Part shown: piece after piece, positions 3,027 to 53,331 of the stretch
How positions within the stretch are numbered: the first letter of the stretch is position 1
How the letters are laid out: the number at the start of each line of letters is the position of its first letter
NCBI GenBank assembly: GCA_021817565.1
Contig: JAKAUP010000007.1
Span: forward strand, 216,497-271,473
Length of the DNA stretch: 54,977 nt
Direction: 5' to 3'
From: Microcaldota archaeon
GTDB taxonomy: Archaea; Micrarchaeota; Micrarchaeia; Micrarchaeales; Micrarchaeaceae
Position numbers and translations under genes: made by a program
Notes under the pieces: model-generated
The model's database searches: none
The model's input: only the letters and a program-made list of their open reading frames with translations
What the model was told of the DNA's origin: nothing

Positions 3027-3057
3027 CTAACACCTATCGGCGCTCAAAACATACTCC
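3027..3057 (-). repeat. Ankyrin-gene boundary element, copy 1 (diverged)
   Basis: It contains CTAACACCTATCGGCGCTC followed by an AAAACATACTCC stretch, a diverged copy of the boundary found at every junction of the 50.7-53.7 kb array. On the minus strand it encodes the last residues of the ankyrin protein and its TAG stop, and the next ATG follows one base later. Confidence 0.75.
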
Positions 3058-3734
3058 ATCTTTTTACGAATTTCCCCAAATCCCTTTCTCAGTTTAATCC
3101 GCCCAACCCCTCCTCTCTCTTCAATCCCGCGAATAATCTCCCCTCTTGCCATCTTATTATCTAAGGTAATGCGAAGAAGTTCCGCTATATTTTGATTTCT
3201 CGTTAATTCGCGCGCTGTTTTACCCTCATTATTTTTTAGCTTTATGTCAGCCCCATGCTCCACAAGAACCTTTACAATCCCCTCATGTCCGTTCCGTGCA
3301 GCCCACATCAACGCCGTTCGTCCATCATTACTCTGCAAGTTCACGTTAGCTCCCCGCCCAACAAGAATCTCCACAATCCTCTCATGTCCGTTCACTGCAG
3401 CCATCATCAACGCTGTCCATCCTTCCTTCCCCCTATTATCCACATCAGCCCCATGCTCCACAAGAACTTCCACAATCTCGTCACATCCATTCTCTGCAGC
3501 CCTCATCAACGCCGTCAGTCCATTCTCATTCTTCGATTCCACATCAGCCCCATGCTCAACAAGAAACCCCACAACTTCCATATGTCTATTCGCTGCAGCC
3601 AACATCAACGCCGCCCGTCCATACTTATCCTTCAAGTTCGCATCAGCCCCCATTCTGACCAAGATCTTCACTTTTGTGAGTTTTCCTGCCTTTGCTGCTT
3701 CTATGAGTCTTTCATTCAAGTAATTGCCAAACAC
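3027..3734 (-). CDS. Ankyrin-repeat protein (isolated copy)
   Basis: The protein has 235 residues if it starts at the GTG at 3734, which aligns with the ATG of the other copies (FRNYLNEKL versus here FGNYLNERL); a GTG nine bases earlier is also open. Five ankyrin repeats of 33 residues follow (consensus GWTALMRAAENGxKExVEVLVEHGADV), then a C-terminal cap GKTARELTRNQNIAELLR and a conserved tail of about 45 residues ending YVLSADRC. Ankyrin stacks bind proteins; no signal peptide is seen, so it is probably cytoplasmic. It shares start, tail and junction sequence with the four-gene array at 50.7-53.7 kb and is flanked by decayed copies on both sides. Repeats 2-4 differ more from each other than those of the array, suggesting an older copy. 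Confidence 0.85.
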   Translation of the reverse strand: MFGNYLNERLIEAAKAGKLTKVKILVRMGADANLKDKYGRAALMLAAANRHMEVVGFLVEHGADVESKNENGLTALMRAAENGCDEIVEVLVEHGADVDNRGKEGWTALMMAAVNGHERIVEILVGRGANVNLQSNDGRTALMWAARNGHEGIVKVLVEHGADIKLKNNEGKTARELTRNQNIAELLRITLDNKMARGEIIRGIEERGGVGRIKLRKGFGEIRKKMEYVLSADRC

Positions 3735-3737
3735 ACA

Positions 3738-3801
3738 TAACACCTACTGGCGCACAAACATCCTTTTTTATAAATTTCCAAGAATCCATTTCTCAGTCTA
3801 A
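3738..3801 (-). pseudogene. Decayed tail of an ankyrin gene with boundary element
   Basis: Just before the isolated ankyrin gene, the sequence TAACACCTACTGGCGC and then a degraded match to the tail-coding region (ending TCTCAGTCTAA against TCTCAGTTTAA in the array) can be aligned with the 3' end of the array genes. The reading frame is destroyed. It is what is left of a gene that once preceded the copy at 3027-3734. Confidence 0.65.
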
Positions 3802-3941
3802 ATCTAGTTAGCTGTCCTTTTTGTTCTGTTTTTTAGAATCTATGTTTACCCGCATATACTACAAAATTACACATACTGCGCTACATTCTGCTTATGTGAT
3901 ATATAAACTTTTTATCAGACAAAGCCTACCCACAAAAAGGC

Positions 3942-3949
3942 ATAAATAT
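3942..3949 (+). promoter_or_regulatory. TATA box of the thermopsin-like gene
   Basis: ATAAATAT centred about 28 nt upstream of the ATG at 3973, leaving essentially no leader. A second TATA-like run (GATATATAAAC, about 3898-3908) lies further upstream. Confidence 0.5.
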
Positions 3950-3972
3950 CATAAACGGCTTATCGCAGAAGT

Positions 3973-4911
3973 ATGCATAAGGAAAGGAGGTCAAAAATAG
4001 AGCGCGCAGCGCTCGCAACCATTCCGCTGTTATTCCTAGGCACGCCTCACCTAAGAGGAGTGGCAAACGACGGCTACATAGCGACATCTGAGATAAGCAG
4101 GACAGAAAGGATAACTGGGAGGTTCGAGGCGAGGAGGTTTGAGCCAGAGCTGACGATAAAGGCCAGAGGCATATTCGGGCAGAAGATGCGCGTAAATATC
4201 TCAGACTACGCGGACAGGGCATCATTCCAACTCAACATTTTTGCGAAGGGGATAGAAAATAACGGGGAAGAGAAAAGATATTGGGTGCAGGACATACTAT
4301 TTGTCAATTCAGATAAAGGGAAAACAAGCTATGTTAACGGGTCAGAGGTATTCGGAATCACGCAGCAGAACTCAATCGGGATATTAAATCCGAAATGGAC
4401 GAATGGGTACGGGAAGGTGTATGTCGTAAGGGACGGCAATGTTGTACAGAACAGCACATACATTTACTCAGCTCCTGCGCAGCCTTTGAAAAAAACATGG
4501 GAAGAGCTGCAGGTAAGGGAGAGGCTAGAAAACGGAAAGATGGTGCTTGAATTCAGGGCGGGGGAAGAAGGAAAGACAAAGGAGTTCGACAAGGTAAGTA
4601 TAAGCGCAGAAAGTGGATTCAGCGATGCATACATATATGCGGATGCCAGCCATCCTGCAGAGTTCGGGATAGGCGGTATATCTAAGTTAATAAACCCTCA
4701 AGGAGATATGATAAACTCAAGAATAATTGTATCGGAGCTTGGGAAAACGGAAGTGTATGCGGAGATACTCAGGGGCAGGAATGGCAATGGGGTAAGATAC
4801 GACCCTTATGCAAGGACTACATCCGCAGAGCGATTTGCGAATAACATAGAATTATATCCGGGAAGCGCAGAGGGAGGAAAGGAAGGATTAGTAACTCTCT
4901 ACAGAAGGTGA
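3973..4911 (+). CDS. Probable exported thermopsin-like (peptidase A5-like) protein
   Basis: The 312-residue protein begins with a basic stretch (HKERRSKIER) and a short hydrophobic segment (AALATIPLLFLGTP), a weak signal peptide. Residues about 80-125 (ASFQLNIFAKG, then RYWVQDILFVNSD) match the SLQLN and YWxQN signature region of archaeal thermopsins, acid proteases secreted by thermoacidophiles. The rest is predicted beta-rich. It is shorter than full thermopsin (about 340) and the Asn in YWxQN is Asp here, so activity is uncertain. It is probably co-transcribed with the alpha/beta hydrolase 4 nt downstream. The family assignment rests on these motifs only. Confidence 0.5.
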   Translation: MHKERRSKIERAALATIPLLFLGTPHLRGVANDGYIATSEISRTERITGRFEARRFEPELTIKARGIFGQKMRVNISDYADRASFQLNIFAKGIENNGEEKRYWVQDILFVNSDKGKTSYVNGSEVFGITQQNSIGILNPKWTNGYGKVYVVRDGNVVQNSTYIYSAPAQPLKKTWEELQVRERLENGKMVLEFRAGEEGKTKEFDKVSISAESGFSDAYIYADASHPAEFGIGGISKLINPQGDMINSRIIVSELGKTEVYAEILRGRNGNGVRYDPYARTTSAERFANNIELYPGSAEGGKEGLVTLYRR

Positions 4912-11929: not shown

Positions 11930-13039
11930 ATGGAAAAGTCAATTCTTGCGGGCATTTTTAAAAAAGTAATAGTAAGAAAAAAAGCAAATATAGATGCATC
12001 AAAACTGAACAGGATACTGGTACTGAGACTAGGGGCAATGGGGGATGTGGTAAGAACGACTCCGATGCTTAGGGAGTTAAGAAGGATGGTGCCGAACGCA
12101 AGGATAGACTATCTGGTAAGCGGGAGGGTAAGCGAGGTACTGGAAGGGAATCCGAATGTGGATAGGATAATAAGGCTGAATGGGCAGATATACGGGCTAT
12201 CCTTCCAGACAATAGCCACATTTTACAGAGCGGCAAGAAGAATAAGGAAGGAAAAATACGACCTTATGATAAACCTGGAACCGCACTATTTCTCACAGTT
12301 TTTCACGCTGATGTGCGGCATACCTATAGTCATAGGGTGGGACAGGGCAGGGGAAGGGTTCGCACTGAACAACAAAGTGGAATATGACGGGAGGAGCAAC
12401 GAGATATACAAGGCATTGGAGACGCTCAAGTTCATAGGAAGGTACAGAAAGAACGCAGACCTGGAGATATACATAGGGAAGAAGGAGAGAGAGTTCGCAC
12501 GAAAGGAGCTGTCAAAGGCAAGAAAGGGAAGGTTAATAGCGATAGCTCCGGGCGCAACAAGGAATCAGAGGGCATCGGAGACAATAAGGAGATGGCCTGA
12601 AGAGAGATATAGGGAACTGTCGGAAAGGCTTGCAAGGATGGGCTACACAATAGTATTCGTGGGAGACAGGCACGACAAGGGTGTAATAAAGAAAGTATCG
12701 GGAAACCTCAAAAAGGGCAGCTACATAGATACATCGGGAAAGACAACCATAAAGGAGATGGCCGCAATAATTGGCATGTGCGACCTATTCATATCTCATG
12801 ACTCGGGACCGATGCACATCGCCGCAGCAGTAAAGACACCAATAATAGCGCTTTTCGGTTCGACAGAACCAAGGAGGGCGGCGCCGCTGACAAAGAATTC
12901 GATAGTGATATACAAGAGAAGAAAAAACGAGCCGCTACAGTATGACATCTACGGAAGGTATATAAACACAGATATGGATTACCTAAAGAGAATATCTGTA
13001 GAAGAGGTAATCTCTCAGGTTAAAAAGCCAAATAGCTAA
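11930..13039 (+). CDS. GT9 glycosyltransferase (heptosyltransferase-like)
   Basis: This 369-residue protein has the features of the GT9 family (ADP-heptose:LPS heptosyltransferases). The N-terminal RILVLRLGAMGDVVRTTPML is the family signature, and it is followed by LRRMVPNARIDYLVSGRVSE. The C-terminal donor half has IAIAPGATRNQR, FVGDRHDKGVIKKV and the diagnostic HDSGPMHIAAAVKTPIIALF with GSTEPRRAAP. Bacterial GT9 enzymes add heptose to lipopolysaccharide. An archaeon has no LPS, so the acceptor here is probably an N-glycan or glycolipid and the donor may be a nucleotide-heptose; gmhA lies 13 kb away. It is the first gene of a plus-strand run of four (spacings 24, 18 and 15 nt). Confidence 0.85.
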   Translation: MEKSILAGIFKKVIVRKKANIDASKLNRILVLRLGAMGDVVRTTPMLRELRRMVPNARIDYLVSGRVSEVLEGNPNVDRIIRLNGQIYGLSFQTIATFYRAARRIRKEKYDLMINLEPHYFSQFFTLMCGIPIVIGWDRAGEGFALNNKVEYDGRSNEIYKALETLKFIGRYRKNADLEIYIGKKEREFARKELSKARKGRLIAIAPGATRNQRASETIRRWPEERYRELSERLARMGYTIVFVGDRHDKGVIKKVSGNLKKGSYIDTSGKTTIKEMAAIIGMCDLFISHDSGPMHIAAAVKTPIIALFGSTEPRRAAPLTKNSIVIYKRRKNEPLQYDIYGRYINTDMDYLKRISVEEVISQVKKPNS

Positions 13040-13063: not shown

Positions 13064-14125
13064 ATGCGTGTTGCACTTACTGGCATCAAAGGAGATTTCG
13101 TTAAAGGGAGCGGTTCAGGTATAGTCAGATACAATACGGAGCTGTACGATAATCTAATCAGAAGAAAACTGGATGTGGGTATTCTAGAGTTCAGAAACTT
13201 ATTCCAATACACCTTAAAAACCGGGTTAAACGACCTAAGTGGATATGATATAATCCACAACCCTGTAGGTATAAAGGTGACCATACCATTTAGGAAAGGA
13301 AAAGCAAAAATGGTAAATACAGTGCATGATTTAATATTTATAAAAAATCCAGAGCTCTACAACGAAAGAACAAAAGTAAAAGATAGTTTAAGCGTAAGCC
13401 TGAGAAAAAAGCTACTACTGGACTATTCAAAAATCTCAATATGGTCGGACATTAAGTTCTCTGATCATATAATAACTGATGCTGCGCTCGTGAAAAATGA
13501 GTTAGTAGAGATGGGCCTTTCAAGAAATACGGTATCAGTAGTGCCGTTGGGGGTCGATAAACGTTTTATCAAGAAGGCAGCATCAAAGAAAAATAAGATT
13601 TTTACTGTCGGGTATATCGGATCTTTCCAACGCAAGAAAAACGTAGGCTTTGCAATAGAAGCATTCAACAAATTCCAAAAAATATATGCCAAAGGTTCAA
13701 TAATGGAACTTTGGGGAAGCCCGAAATCTCCGGAATATGAATACACAAGATCCCTCGCCGCAAACAATAAAAACATAATATTCAAGGGATTTGCCCCAGA
13801 AGAAATGATTGTACAAACATATGATCGTTTTCACGTAGCTGTATTTCCAATAATCTCAACCGGTTTTGAACTTGAGATACTAGAAGCACAATCCAGAGGC
13901 ATCCCGGTAATAACCTGCAAGGACTCGAAGATACCATCAGAAGTCAGGAAGTACTGCCTAGAATCTAAAAATGCAGAACACGCAGCAGAAATAATTAAAA
14001 ATCTTGCAGAGAATGGATATAACGAAAAGGCAGCAAAAATTGCCATGAGGTATGCACGAACTTTTACTTGGGATAGGACAGCAGAAGAAACTATAAAAGT
14101 GTACAATAAAATAATAGAAGATTAA
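13064..14125 (+). CDS. Glycosyltransferase, GT4-like
   Basis: The 353-residue GT-B protein has the N-terminal glycine-rich turn GSGSGIVRYNTELYDNL and the donor-domain start FTVGYIGSFQRKKNVGFAIE. The C-terminal region has FKGFAPEEMIVQTYDRFHVA and ISTGFELEILEAQSRGIPVI, where the family's E-x7-E is reduced to FELEILEAQSRG. HNPVGIKVTIPF and VNTVHDLIFIKNPELY match other archaeal GT4 enzymes. It is placed between the GT9 gene and the sugar-nucleotide genes. Donor and acceptor are not known. Confidence 0.82.
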   Translation: MRVALTGIKGDFVKGSGSGIVRYNTELYDNLIRRKLDVGILEFRNLFQYTLKTGLNDLSGYDIIHNPVGIKVTIPFRKGKAKMVNTVHDLIFIKNPELYNERTKVKDSLSVSLRKKLLLDYSKISIWSDIKFSDHIITDAALVKNELVEMGLSRNTVSVVPLGVDKRFIKKAASKKNKIFTVGYIGSFQRKKNVGFAIEAFNKFQKIYAKGSIMELWGSPKSPEYEYTRSLAANNKNIIFKGFAPEEMIVQTYDRFHVAVFPIISTGFELEILEAQSRGIPVITCKDSKIPSEVRKYCLESKNAEHAAEIIKNLAENGYNEKAAKIAMRYARTFTWDRTAEETIKVYNKIIED

Positions 14126-14143: not shown

Positions 14144-15076
14144 ATGGAAAAGATACTACTTACTGGTGCGTCAGGGTTTGTCGGACAAGAACTCAGGAAA
14201 AAATTAGAGGGAAAATACGAATTGCACATACTTGAAAGATATGTAACTGGCAGATACGGTCTAGATAAGAATACCCATCTGCATTACGCAAATCTTACTG
14301 ATTACACCGCAGTAAAAAAATTGGTAAGAAGTGTAAGACCTAACTATTGTATACATCTTGCCGCGATAAGTGCAGTAAGCTTCAGCTATGAGAATTACAT
14401 AGAAGTCACAGAGACAGACTACACTGGTACGATAAACTTGGCCGAGACGTGTTATAGAGAAAATCCTGATTTCAAACAATTTATTTTCTCCGGAACATCC
14501 GAAGAATACGGCACTACGCTACGTTCAAAAAATAAAAAATTGAAAGAAGAATCTAAACTGGAGCCGAATTCGCCATACGCTGTTGCAAAGGTCGCTGCAG
14601 ATTACTACTTACAGTATATGGCGAAAGCGTATGATTTTCCTTATACGATAATACGCCCCTTCAATACCTACGGCAGAAAAGATAACGACCATTTTTTCGT
14701 GGAGAGAGTTGTTACACAGATGCTAAAGGGAGGGCCTGTTACTCTGGGTGATCCTAACGCAGTGCGGGACTGGTTATACATAGATGATCATGTCGAAGGT
14801 TACGTTAAGGCAATAAATAACAAGAAGGCAATAGGGGAAACGATACAGTTGTGTACAGGTAAGGGTTATACCACAAAGGAGACAGCAGAAAAAATCGGAA
14901 AGATTATCGGATATAAAGGGGATATAAAATGGGGCGTTACGGCTCAAAGACCTCTTGACGCATATGTACTTATAGGGGACAACAGCAAAGCAAAAAACAT
15001 CCTTGGCTGGTCTCCAAAGTACACTTTTGAAGAAGGTATCAGGAAAACTATAAATTACTGGAAGAGTTCTATTTAA
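14144..15076 (+). CDS. NAD(P)-dependent sugar-nucleotide 4,6-dehydratase/epimerase (SDR)
   Basis: This 310-residue extended SDR binds NAD(P) through TGASGFVGQ and converts a nucleotide sugar. Catalytic SPYAVAK (YxxxK) is preceded by SGTSEEYG: a hydroxyl residue followed by Glu, the arrangement of GDP-mannose 4,6-dehydratase, whereas plain epimerases lack that Glu. RPFNTYG and VRDWLYIDDHVEGYVKA are further family marks. With the His-type DegT enzyme 15 nt downstream it would supply a 4-keto-6-deoxy sugar for 3-deoxygenation. GDP-mannose, CDP-glucose or a GDP-heptose are all possible substrates. An ordinary epimerase remains possible. Confidence 0.75.
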   Translation: MEKILLTGASGFVGQELRKKLEGKYELHILERYVTGRYGLDKNTHLHYANLTDYTAVKKLVRSVRPNYCIHLAAISAVSFSYENYIEVTETDYTGTINLAETCYRENPDFKQFIFSGTSEEYGTTLRSKNKKLKEESKLEPNSPYAVAKVAADYYLQYMAKAYDFPYTIIRPFNTYGRKDNDHFFVERVVTQMLKGGPVTLGDPNAVRDWLYIDDHVEGYVKAINNKKAIGETIQLCTGKGYTTKETAEKIGKIIGYKGDIKWGVTAQRPLDAYVLIGDNSKAKNILGWSPKYTFEEGIRKTINYWKSSI

Positions 15077-15091
15077 GAAGGGAAAGATAAT

Positions 15092-16267
15092 ATGTTCAAG
15101 GTTACTGTTGGGGATTTGAAAATAACAAAGGAAGACATAAAGATGGTCAATAATGTGCTGCATTCCAGTAGGTTATCATATGGTCCTTATTCTAGAGAAT
15201 TCGAAAAGGAGTTTGCAACCATGCACCAATCTAAATTCGGTGTATTCACAAATAGCGGTACAAGCGCCTTGCATATCGCCTTAAGCTCAATAAAGGAGAA
15301 ATACGGGTTTGACGAAGGGGACGAGGTAATTGTCCCAGCCACAACCTTTATTGCCACGTCCAATATTGTGATACACAACAACATGAAACCTGTTTTTGTG
15401 GACGTGAAAGAAAGCAGTTTTAACATAGACCCAGAAAAAATAGAAGAGGCAATAACCGCGAGAACAAAAGCAATAATCCCAGTACACTTACTAGGCCTTC
15501 CTGCAGAGATGGACAAGATAATGAGCATAGCAAAAAAACACAAATTAAGGGTAATAGAAGATTCCGCAGAAACTATGTTTGCCAAATACAAAGGTAAAAG
15601 CGTAGGTTCCTTTGGGGACATAGGCTGTTTTTCCACATATGTTGCACATTACATAGTTACAGGGGTGGGCGGTCTTAATACAACCTCAAATCCAAATCTT
15701 GCTGTTTTGCTGCGCAGTTATGCAAACCACGGGAGAGACTCGATATACATAAACATAGACGATGACAAAACTAAAAACAAGAAAAAATTCCACGAGATAG
15801 TCGAAAGAAGATTCAAATTTGTGCGGTTGGGACATAGTTTCAGAGCTACAGAAATGGAGGCAGCAATAGGGTTATCCCAACTCAAACGCAAAAACAAGAT
15901 AATATCTGCCAGGAAAAGAGTTGCGGGGGTATACAGAAAAGGTCTGTCTGACCTTTCAGAATACCTGCAATTTCAGGAAGCTACCAAAGGAGCAGATAAC
16001 ACCTATATGCTGTTTGGGATATTATTGAAGGATTTGGACAAGAGGGAGTTAGTTAACTACCTGGAAGACAACGGAGTTGAGACAAGGGATTTACTGCCCC
16101 TCATAAACCAACCAGTGTACCAAAAATTATTGAAGATAAAAATGGACAAGTACCCGGTATCTAAAAAACTGATAAAATCAGGTTTCTATATCGGTTGTCA
16201 CCAATATATAACGGACAAACAGGCGGAATACGTTGTGAAGGTGTTCCACAACTTCTTCAAAAGGTAA
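15092..16267 (+). CDS. DegT/DnrJ-fold enzyme with His in place of the PLP lysine (ColD/RfbH-like 3-dehydratase)
   Basis: The 391-residue protein has the DegT/DnrJ/EryC1/StrS fold: FTNSGTSALHIALSSIK, DEVIVPATTFIATSN, AIIPVHLLGLPAEMDKI and the cofactor aspartate in VIEDSAETMFAKYKGK. The place of the Schiff-base lysine (normally SFxxxKxxTTGEGG) reads STYVAHYIVTGVGG, with His186 instead of Lys. Histidine at this site is the hallmark of ColD (His188 in E. coli) and RfbH, which use PMP/PLP as a dehydratase to remove the 3-hydroxyl from a 4-keto-6-deoxy sugar. SYANHGRDSIYIN and LGHSFRATEMEAAIGLSQLK also resemble those enzymes more than plain aminotransferases. No iron-sulfur cysteines are seen, so it is closer to ColD than RfbH. 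Product: perhaps a 3,6-dideoxy sugar. Confidence 0.75.
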   Translation: MFKVTVGDLKITKEDIKMVNNVLHSSRLSYGPYSREFEKEFATMHQSKFGVFTNSGTSALHIALSSIKEKYGFDEGDEVIVPATTFIATSNIVIHNNMKPVFVDVKESSFNIDPEKIEEAITARTKAIIPVHLLGLPAEMDKIMSIAKKHKLRVIEDSAETMFAKYKGKSVGSFGDIGCFSTYVAHYIVTGVGGLNTTSNPNLAVLLRSYANHGRDSIYINIDDDKTKNKKKFHEIVERRFKFVRLGHSFRATEMEAAIGLSQLKRKNKIISARKRVAGVYRKGLSDLSEYLQFQEATKGADNTYMLFGILLKDLDKRELVNYLEDNGVETRDLLPLINQPVYQKLLKIKMDKYPVSKKLIKSGFYIGCHQYITDKQAEYVVKVFHNFFKR

Positions 16268-25847: not shown

Positions 25848-26420
25848 ATGGACAACAATGAGATCATTTCTTACATAGAAGAAGGGAACGCAGCAAGGAG
25901 CTCGCTTGAGGCAGATAAGGTCTCAAGGGTTGCCAAGGTGATAACGGAAGCACTCCGTTCCGGGAAGAAGGTACTTTGCATGGGCAACGGAGGGAGTGCC
26001 GCAGACTCGCAGCACTTCGTAGCCGAACTGGTTGGTCGCTTTGAAGCTGAGCGCAGAGGTCTACCTGCAGTCGCACTCACAACCGACTCCTCCGTCACAA
26101 CAGCGATATCGAACGATTACTCCTATGAGATGGTATTCGCAAGGCAGGTGGAGGCGCTTGCACAACCTGGCGACGTTGTTGTAGGTATCTCTACAAGCGG
26201 GAACTCCAAGAATGTCGTTGCTGCGCTCGAAACCGCAAAGAGAATCGGGTGCAGGATCGTAACGCTTACCGGGCAGAAAGGAAGGGTTCCTGAGCTAGCA
26301 GACAGCGGATGCAACATAATGGTTTCCAGCAAGCGCACCTCCTTTATACAGGAGGCCCATATCTGCGCTATACACATGATATCAAAGATGGTTGAGGACA
26401 GCTTCTCACCAGGAAAATAA
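25848..26420 (+). CDS. gmhA: Phosphoheptose isomerase (sedoheptulose-7-phosphate isomerase)
   Basis: This 190-residue SIS-domain enzyme turns sedoheptulose 7-phosphate into glycero-manno-heptose 7-phosphate, the first step of nucleotide-heptose synthesis. The family marks are present: LCMGNGGSAADSQHFVAELV (phosphate loop and catalytic Glu), ALTTDSSVTTAISNDYSYE, VVGISTSGNSKNVVAAL (second phosphate loop) and the C-terminal QEAHICAIHMISKMVE carrying the catalytic His. Length equals the bacterial enzyme. Heptose synthesis is well known for bacterial LPS and S-layer glycans and is rarer in archaea, so this gene with the GT9 gene suggests a heptose in the surface glycan. The kinase, phosphatase and nucleotidyltransferase are not evident here, except possibly the RmlA-like gene. 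Confidence 0.92.
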   Translation: MDNNEIISYIEEGNAARSSLEADKVSRVAKVITEALRSGKKVLCMGNGGSAADSQHFVAELVGRFEAERRGLPAVALTTDSSVTTAISNDYSYEMVFARQVEALAQPGDVVVGISTSGNSKNVVAALETAKRIGCRIVTLTGQKGRVPELADSGCNIMVSSKRTSFIQEAHICAIHMISKMVEDSFSPGK

Positions 26421-52242: not shown

Positions 52243-52272
52243 CTAACACCTACTGGCGCTTAAAACATATCC
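52243..52272 (-). repeat. Ankyrin-gene boundary element, copy B/C junction
   Basis: Identical 30-bp element encoding the end of copy B (VLSASRC and TAG); the ATG of copy C follows after one base. Confidence 0.9.
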
Positions 52273-53331
52273 CTCCTTTTTATGAATTTTCGCAAATCCC
52301 TCTCTCAGTTTAACCCCCCGAACCCCCCCTCTCTTATCAATCTTGCAAATAATATCCTCCGTTACAGGTTGAAGAAGTTCCGCTATATCCCTATATCTCT
52401 CCGCTAGTTCGCGCACAGTTTTCCCCTCATTATCTTTTAGCGTTATGTCTGCTCCATGCTCCACAAGGAACTTCACAACATCTTTACGTTCATTCCCTGC
52501 AGCCAACATCAACGCAGTCCATCCACAACCATCCTTCAAGTCCACATCAGCCCCATGCTCAACAAGAAACTCCACAACATCTTTATCTCCATTCCTTGCA
52601 GCCACCATCAACGCCGTCCCTCCATTATTATTCTTCAAGTCCACATCAGCCCCATGCTCCACAAGAAACTCAACAACATCTTTACTTCCATTCAATGCAG
52701 CCACCATCAACGCCGTCCCTCCATCATTTTTCTTCGAGTTCACATCCGCTCCGTGCTCAACAAGAACCTCCACAACGTCTTTTCGTCCATTCTCTGCAGC
52801 CAACATCAACGCCGTACATTCATAAATATTCTTAAAGTTCACATCAGCCCCATTCTCCACAAGAAACTCCACAACGTCTTTTCGTCCACTCTCTGCAGCC
52901 CACATCAACGCCGTACATTCAGAACGATTCTTCGAGTCCACATCAGCCCCATTCTCCACAAGAACCTCCACAATATCTTTTCGTCCATCCCCTGCAGCCC
53001 ACATCAACGCCGTACATTCAGAACGATCCTTCAAGTCCACATCAGCCCCATTCTCCACAAGAACCTCCACAATATCTTTTCGTCCATTCCTTGCAGCCCA
53101 CATCAACGCCGTCCATCCATCACTATTCTTCAAGTTCACATCAGCCCCATGCTCCACAAGAACCCCAACAGTCTCCGGATGTCCCACCCGTGCAGCCCAC
53201 ATCAACTCCGTCCATCCAACACTATCCTTCAAGTTCACATCCGCCCCACTTTTAACCAATGTCTTCGCTTTTGTGAGTTCTCCTGCCTTTGCTGCCATTC
53301 TGAGTTTCTTATTCAAGTAATTCCTAAACAT
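52243..53331 (-). CDS. Ankyrin-repeat protein, array copy B (largest)
   Basis: The 362-residue protein has nine full 33-residue ankyrin repeats, more than the others, plus a capping half repeat (GKTVRELAERYRDIAELLQP) and the full conserved tail (GGVRGVKLREGFAKIHKKEG then YVLSASRC). Adjacent repeats 3-5 share unusual ECTALMWAA and VLVENGADVD wording, so they look freshly duplicated within the gene. Variable residues cluster at the beta-turn tips and inner helix positions that contact partners. It is the intact reference for the family and starts one base after the stop of copy A. Confidence 0.88.
   Translation of the reverse strand: MFRNYLNKKLRMAAKAGELTKAKTLVKSGADVNLKDSVGWTELMWAARVGHPETVGVLVEHGADVNLKNSDGWTALMWAARNGRKDIVEVLVENGADVDLKDRSECTALMWAAGDGRKDIVEVLVENGADVDSKNRSECTALMWAAESGRKDVVEFLVENGADVNFKNIYECTALMLAAENGRKDVVEVLVEHGADVNSKKNDGGTALMVAALNGSKDVVEFLVEHGADVDLKNNNGGTALMVAARNGDKDVVEFLVEHGADVDLKDGCGWTALMLAAGNERKDVVKFLVEHGADITLKDNEGKTVRELAERYRDIAELLQPVTEDIICKIDKRGGVRGVKLREGFAKIHKKEGYVLSASRC

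Follow-up and report, generated by a model that had tools for sequence, protein, structure and literature searches.

A DegT-family protein with histidine at the PLP-lysine position in a micrarchaeal operon: a predicted sugar-nucleotide C3-dehydratase outside the ColD and RfbH clades

The ColD and E1/SpnQ branches of sugar C3-deoxygenation are known from bacterial O-antigens and antibiotics. ColD, the GDP-4-keto-6-deoxy-D-mannose 3-dehydratase (structures 2gms and 3gr9), has the DegT fold with histidine in place of the PLP-binding lysine and no Fe-S cysteines. E1/RfbH, the CDP-4-keto-6-deoxyglucose 3-dehydratase (3bcx), also has histidine for lysine, here following an alanine, and carries a four-cysteine [2Fe-2S] site. 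Passages of PMC10440746 describe the C3-dehydratases of Campylobacter jejuni HS:5 and HS:11, which serve 3,6-dideoxyheptose formation and work with PLP, glutamate and a 4-keto sugar nucleotide; the product has a mass 16 below that of the 4-keto substrate, with one oxygen from the solvent. The same passages give 62–67% identity to two characterised ColD-type enzymes. The Campylobacter enzymes are therefore presumably members of the ColD clade, unlike the archaeal protein described here, for which similar chemistry is predicted.

The window (the whole stretch of 54,977 nucleotides that was analysed, from a Microcaldota archaeon) contains four head-to-tail genes in the order GT9-GT4-SDR-DegT. Within the run the gaps are 24, 18 and 15 nt; the gap to the following ORF is 91 nt. 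The features are:

11930–13039, + strand: GT9 (heptosyltransferase-like) glycosyltransferase with which the operon begins; exceeds the TIGR02195 cut-off
13064–14125, + strand: GT4 glycosyltransferase, second gene; in relatives, homologues lie beside DegT or SDR310
14144–15076, + strand: extended SDR of 310 aa (SDR310) with TSE...YxxxK, a candidate 4,6-dehydratase from motifs and profile scores; ends 15 nt before the DegT gene
15092–16267, + strand: member of the DegT/DnrJ/EryC1/StrS family in which His186 occupies the PLP-lysine position; predicted C3-dehydratase of an NDP-4-keto-6-deoxysugar, dependent on PMP and glutamate (PF01041, alignments, tree, model)
15647–15649, + strand: His186 codon CAT within the motif FSTYVAHYIVTGVGG (ORF reading, HMMER alignment)
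774–1514, - strand: RmlA-like sugar nucleotidyltransferase, a candidate NDP-sugar supplier; in genome G122 a homologue (55%) is two genes away from an orthologue of SDR310

The GT9 protein is an archaeal one that exceeds the NCBIfam cut-off for lipopolysaccharide heptosyltransferase II. As a separate observation, the window encodes ankyrin-repeat proteins at 3027–3743 and 52243–53331 (-), in an archaeal genome of 0.78 Mb. In another locus, L209, PriL-like and PriX domains lie on a single ORF (3871–4848), a possible fused primase subunit.

The ORF at 15092–16267 is uninterrupted from ATG to TAA and encodes 391 amino acids. PF01041 spans the protein over its full length (329 bits, 4.6e-98), as expected of the DegT/aspartate-aminotransferase fold. 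In HMMER alignments the stretch FSTYVAHYIVTGVGG pairs with FSFFGNKIITTGEGG of GDP-perosamine synthase, which places a lysine opposite His186. Its counterpart in E1 is VSFYPAHHITMGEGG, in which the residue opposite His186 counts to H220; the alignment with E1 is full-length. Together with the CAT codon, these alignments confirm an earlier note on this DNA, which had read the gene as a DegT-family enzyme with histidine at the PLP-lysine position. The note was loose in placing the aminotransferase lysine seven residues before TGxGG, as the residue sits four positions ahead of the T in TGVGG. The residue before His186 is alanine, likewise in E1; it is asparagine in perosamine synthase and serine in ColD, of which a PDB title describes an S187N/H188K design. 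Landmarks of the cofactor site (NSGT at 54–57, E156-D157, S181 and R251) are invariant across ten close-family sequences. Two other positions differ: the Glu of GEGG is replaced by valine (Val192), and Ser249 stands where other DegT enzymes have the conserved asparagine of the dimer loop.

The AlphaFold model of the protein is confident (pLDDT 91). Its best structural match is GDP-perosamine synthase PerA (3bn1; Z 50.2), tied with E1, and the structure and profile searches made with the protein did not favour dehydratases over perosamine synthase. Because of this tie, the fold cannot separate amination from dehydration. This raises the question of whether the DegT protein is still an aminotransferase, in which His186 or another base performs the 1,3-proton shift and the product is a 4-amino-4,6-dideoxysugar of the perosamine type. 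In addition to the structural tie, such a reading can draw on SpnQ, a histidine enzyme that aminates with PLP and glutamate when no reductase is present, according to parts of the review PMC8987622. Thus histidine does not exclude amination. The conservation of the histidine, the alanine that precedes it in place of the asparagine of PerA, and the gene neighbourhoods of relatives all speak against an aminotransferase.

Conservation was assessed first by a whole-protein search over 301 genomes of the phylum, in which the active-site motif played no part. Counting the window protein itself, ten matches exceed 430 bits, and the next ones are all at or below 225 bits. The other nine are 52–71% identical to the window protein. 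All ten keep the histidine, in the motif FS(T/S)YxAHxxVTGVGG, and since they were found without use of the motif, the substitution is not a chance one. G202, the one genus-mate among the matches listed, is without this DegT. An alignment of the ten homologues was then used to scan 84,980 species genomes. This gave 144 relatives, of which the best 80 were kept, so that counts over the resulting 81 loci (80 plus the window) refer to the nearest members only. Histidine is present in 81 of these 81; it should be pointed out that one of the two fetch patterns includes the histidine, so this set is partly selected and only the set of ten is unselected. Of the best 80 loci, 60 are bacterial, 18 are archaeal and 2 are unplaced, and the gene therefore appears to move widely. 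The clade, with the motif FSTYxAHxxxTGVGG and no Fe-S cysteines, is found in DPANN archaea, Elusimicrobiota, Planctomycetota, Gemmatimonadota, Acidobacteriota and others, many of them bacteria, and also in Woesearchaeota, Nanoarchaeota and one Thermoplasmata bin.

Phylogenetically, this TGVGG clade stands apart (support 100/100). The tree includes 24 of its 81 members, hand-picked for spread, and omits L026, L016 and L030 (fused or short frames) as well as all frames of 250 aa or less. ColD-like proteins of the phylum (L020, L028) cluster with ColD (100/96). When the motif columns are excluded, a branch with support 86/89 splits histidine-type from lysine-type rows, and the TGVGG clade lies next to ColD/E1. 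Topology tests, with groups picked after the tree was seen, rejected a tree in which the clade joins perosamine-synthase-like rows and is separated from the other histidine rows (p 0.0072), but did not reject one in which it joins the tandem lysine paralogues of L107 and L121 (p 0.518). A single origin of the histidine across histidine-type enzymes is therefore likely only. The tandem paralogues are of interest in themselves. In L107 (6839–9221) and L121 (2885–5260), both archaeal contigs, a lysine-type DegT gene (LNINKxITTGEGG) lies immediately upstream of the histidine-type gene. The two may be sisters, and their products could even form a mixed dimer.

Identity with either described histidine enzyme was ruled out. 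The window protein scores 259.1 bits with the RfbH model NF011936 (cut-off 423) and belongs to a clade of its own. It has no four-cysteine [2Fe-2S] site: cysteines in the E1 Fe-S region number 0 in the 24 clade members examined, 4 in E1 and 3–5 in RfbH-like rows of the phylum. The window also has neither RfbF nor RfbG. As for ColD, the protein is 27–30% identical to it, lacks the SHHxxxxEGG motif (AHYIVTGVGG, against SHHIATMEGG in ColD) and falls outside the ColD clade. Nor does it have the active-site lysine of a GDP-perosamine synthase. Thus, of the earlier suggestion of a ColD- or RfbH-type dehydratase, the histidine-type DegT, most likely a C3-dehydratase, is retained and the assignment to ColD or RfbH is given up. 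The protein is predicted to belong to a third histidine lineage of sugar C3-dehydratases, whose chemistry in itself would not be new.

The genes that accompany members of the clade bear on the choice between amination and dehydration. Neighbour classes were assigned by best BLAST match to representatives, with thresholds of our own (GMD 250, Fcl 180, RfbF 250 and RfbG 300 bits). NCBIfam cut-offs are exceeded by two of the representatives for GMD, two for RfbF and one for RfbG; the Fcl representatives are below theirs (about 265 of 500), hence the label Fcl-like. Among the 81 loci (the best 80 of 144 relatives and the window), 27 have a GMD-class gene and 25 an Fcl-like gene, with both in 9 and either in 43; RfbF is present in 5. 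Neither GMD nor Fcl-like genes occur in the other 38, where many contigs are short. At least 2.5 kb on each side is available for 52 of the 81, and within that distance there are 13 with GMD, 14 with Fcl-like and 22 with either. GMD-DegT-Fcl runs, overlapping or abutting, are found in L070, L071, L080 and L130. Control loci of the same phylum help to distinguish the candidate enzyme types. Perosamine-synthase-like lysine loci have GMD in 6 of 7 and Fcl in none of the 7. All four RfbH-like loci have RfbF, and none of the four has GMD. Of the two ColD-like loci, L028 has the order DegT-Fcl-GMD; no GMD is present on the other, a contig of 6.9 kb. Seven more lysine-type loci of other subgroups have neither GMD nor Fcl.

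After C3 dehydration a C4-reductase or epimerase-reductase of the Fcl type is required, and amination requires none. The Fcl-like neighbours therefore indicate that the TGVGG clade behaves like ColD, in agreement with its lack of Fe-S cysteines. GMD with Fcl-like neighbours is the arrangement of the GDP-colitose pathway, which makes glutamate/PMP-dependent C3-deoxygenation the best reading. GMD linkage by itself is shared with perosamine synthases and gives the aminotransferase some support; the Fcl-like genes, seen beside the DegT of relatives and at none of the seven perosamine-like controls, do not, and with the invariant histidine they make an aminotransferase improbable.

In five loci (L104, L109, L111, L114 and L120), a gene resembling C-methyltransferases (PF08484/PF08421 in L109) directly follows the histidine-type DegT gene, and another SDR and GMD are often also there. 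C-methylated deoxysugars are possible at these loci.

The proposed C3-dehydratase would need a 4-keto sugar, and SDR310 is the candidate supplier. Its top profile scores are with TIGR04180 and TIGR01181, the LegB and dTDP-glucose 4,6-dehydratase models (156 and 147 bits, below cut-off). Assignments to GMD or RfbG were rejected, with 91.4 bits for the GMD model TIGR01472 (cut-off 415) and 75 bits for the CDP-glucose 4,6-dehydratase model (cut-off 278). The adjacent ‘4,6-dehydratase-like SDR’ of the earlier note is thus a real gene, and the name is a fair one for its sequence; as a label of function it is unproven. Perhaps SDR310 is instead a 4-ketoreductase, similar to RMD or abequose synthase, that acts after DegT, and the assembly lacks the 4,6-dehydratase. 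The GDP-4-keto-6-deoxymannose reductase RMD (2pk3) is among the best PDB matches of SDR310, and an SSEEYG-type motif is common to both. The Thr-(Asp/Ser)-Glu and YxxxK motifs, catalytic in 4,6-dehydratases, take the form TSE and YAVAK in SDR310, and 2pk3, a reductase, has SSEEYG and YGVSK. True RfbG and RfbF genes also lie near the SDR-DegT pair in the relative L051. However, SDR310 scores best on the dehydratase models, and no other dehydratase was found in an assembly that is 97% complete, so that a ketoreductase role appears rather unlikely. A PF01370 search of this genome gives three SDRs, namely SDR310, a GalE-like and an HpnA-like protein; no further SDR and no RmlC were found there, and the window has no GMD, RfbG, RfbF or Fcl-like gene. 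There is accordingly no clear 4-ketoreductase in sight, and SDR310, as the sole dehydratase-like SDR found in the genome, is by elimination likely to provide the 4-keto sugar.

Orthologues of SDR310 (at least 300 bits) are present in 25 of the 301 genomes, where they mostly adjoin GT4 or other genes and are without this DegT; SDR310 alone therefore does not fix the product. SDR310 is found in four of the five genomes with a close DegT homologue (hypergeometric P 1.8e-4 against 25 of 301) and in four of the ten genomes of the whole clade (P 0.0056), with kinship ignored in both values. It directly adjoins DegT in three cases, the window, L051 and L052. In L051 a split transketolase lies next to the pair, as do a cytidylyltransferase and a 4,6-dehydratase for CDP-glucose that both exceed their cut-offs, and the clade may therefore serve CDP-sugars besides GDP-sugars. 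This argument is weak, as the same block is present in L171 with no such DegT nearby. The block itself is conserved in Micrarchaeota in the order RfbF, SDR, N and C halves of the split transketolase, RfbG (L051 2538–6961, L162 7605–12000, L171 7446–11823), and suggests a CDP-sugar branched at C4.

A different substrate, an NDP-heptose, would lead to a 3,6-dideoxyheptose comparable to those of Campylobacter capsules. The operon opens with a heptosyltransferase-like GT9 gene, a GmhA-like isomerase gene lies 9.6 kb downstream (25848–26420; 188 bits, cut-off 209), and the genome has a weak match to RfaE domain II (127 of 181.5 bits). The isomerase and nucleotidyltransferase matches are all under the curated cut-offs, no heptose kinase or phosphatase was identified when a heptose pathway was looked for, and the DegT of relatives is paired with GMD, an enzyme that usually acts on GDP-mannose. 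A heptose substrate is thus improbable. The GmhA-like gene may be noted on its own account as a putative sedoheptulose-7-phosphate isomerase in an archaeon; parts of PMC11461863 show that archaeal heptose enzymes are already in print.

Taken as a C3-dehydratase, the DegT protein is probably a cofactor-dependent enzyme that acts on a sugar nucleotide in the manner of ColD, is supplied by SDR310 and delivers its product to a surface glycan. The steps can be modelled on the review of these enzymes and on the Campylobacter work (parts of PMC8987622 and PMC10440746). PLP and glutamate would give PMP. This would condense with an NDP-4-keto-6-deoxysugar, most likely provided by SDR310 next door, to a ketimine at the 4-keto group. 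His186, in the place of the lysine, would take a proton from the cofactor, and the C3 hydroxyl would leave. Hydrolysis would then release an NDP-4-keto-3,6-dideoxysugar, and glutamate would turn PLP back into PMP, with neither an Fe-S cluster nor an E3 reductase involved. The GT4 and GT9 enzymes of the operon would transfer the product onto a surface glycan. Computation establishes the histidine substitution with its conservation, the separate clade, the lack of Fe-S cysteines, the operon and the GMD/Fcl surroundings of relatives. We infer the reaction, and with it the identity of nucleotide and sugar, a final reductase and the glycan; a 3,6-dideoxy product is plausible. A more far-reaching proposal is that the TGVGG clade is a third C3-dehydratase lineage, possibly with a histidine origin of its own, with valine for the Glu of GEGG and serine for the dimer-loop Asn, which here acts on the product of a dehydratase other than GMD or RfbG and yields a 3-deoxysugar on an archaeal surface. 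Taken as a whole, it is possible but doubtful.

The earlier note had supposed such a sugar to be rare or unreported in archaea. This fails at the level of genes. The active site was read in 50 DegT loci of the phylum, a non-random sample made up of the 30 best-scoring with loci and 20 hand-chosen from the match list of the 301-genome search; 23 have histidine and 27 lysine, which rules out rarity of histidine-type DegT proteins in archaea. RfbH- and ColD-like proteins are among the 23, and 13 lie outside the TGVGG clade. On the chemical side, no report of a 3,6-dideoxy sugar from an archaeon turned up in a literature search of open-licence PMC papers. In the relevant passages, PMC7725333 assigns tyvelose, paratose and abequose to a rare group of monosaccharides, most of which are absent in Archaea, and cautions that few archaeal sequences stand behind its profiles. 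The phylum also has more histidine-type DegT variants, in L199, L200 and L201 (IAHNIQVGEFG, GSHxxTxAGxGG), which belong to neither the ColD nor the E1 subclade.

To our knowledge, the surface sugars of DPANN archaea are hardly known. If the proposed function is correct, it would offer a testable prediction for these organisms, namely a glycan residue that is missing the oxygen at C3. Sugar C3-deoxygenation would also extend beyond the ColD and E1/SpnQ branches to a third branch that can be assayed directly. The TGVGG clade, including the two loci with tandem lysine- and histidine-type genes, would be a natural comparison for the lysine/histidine switch between amination and dehydration.
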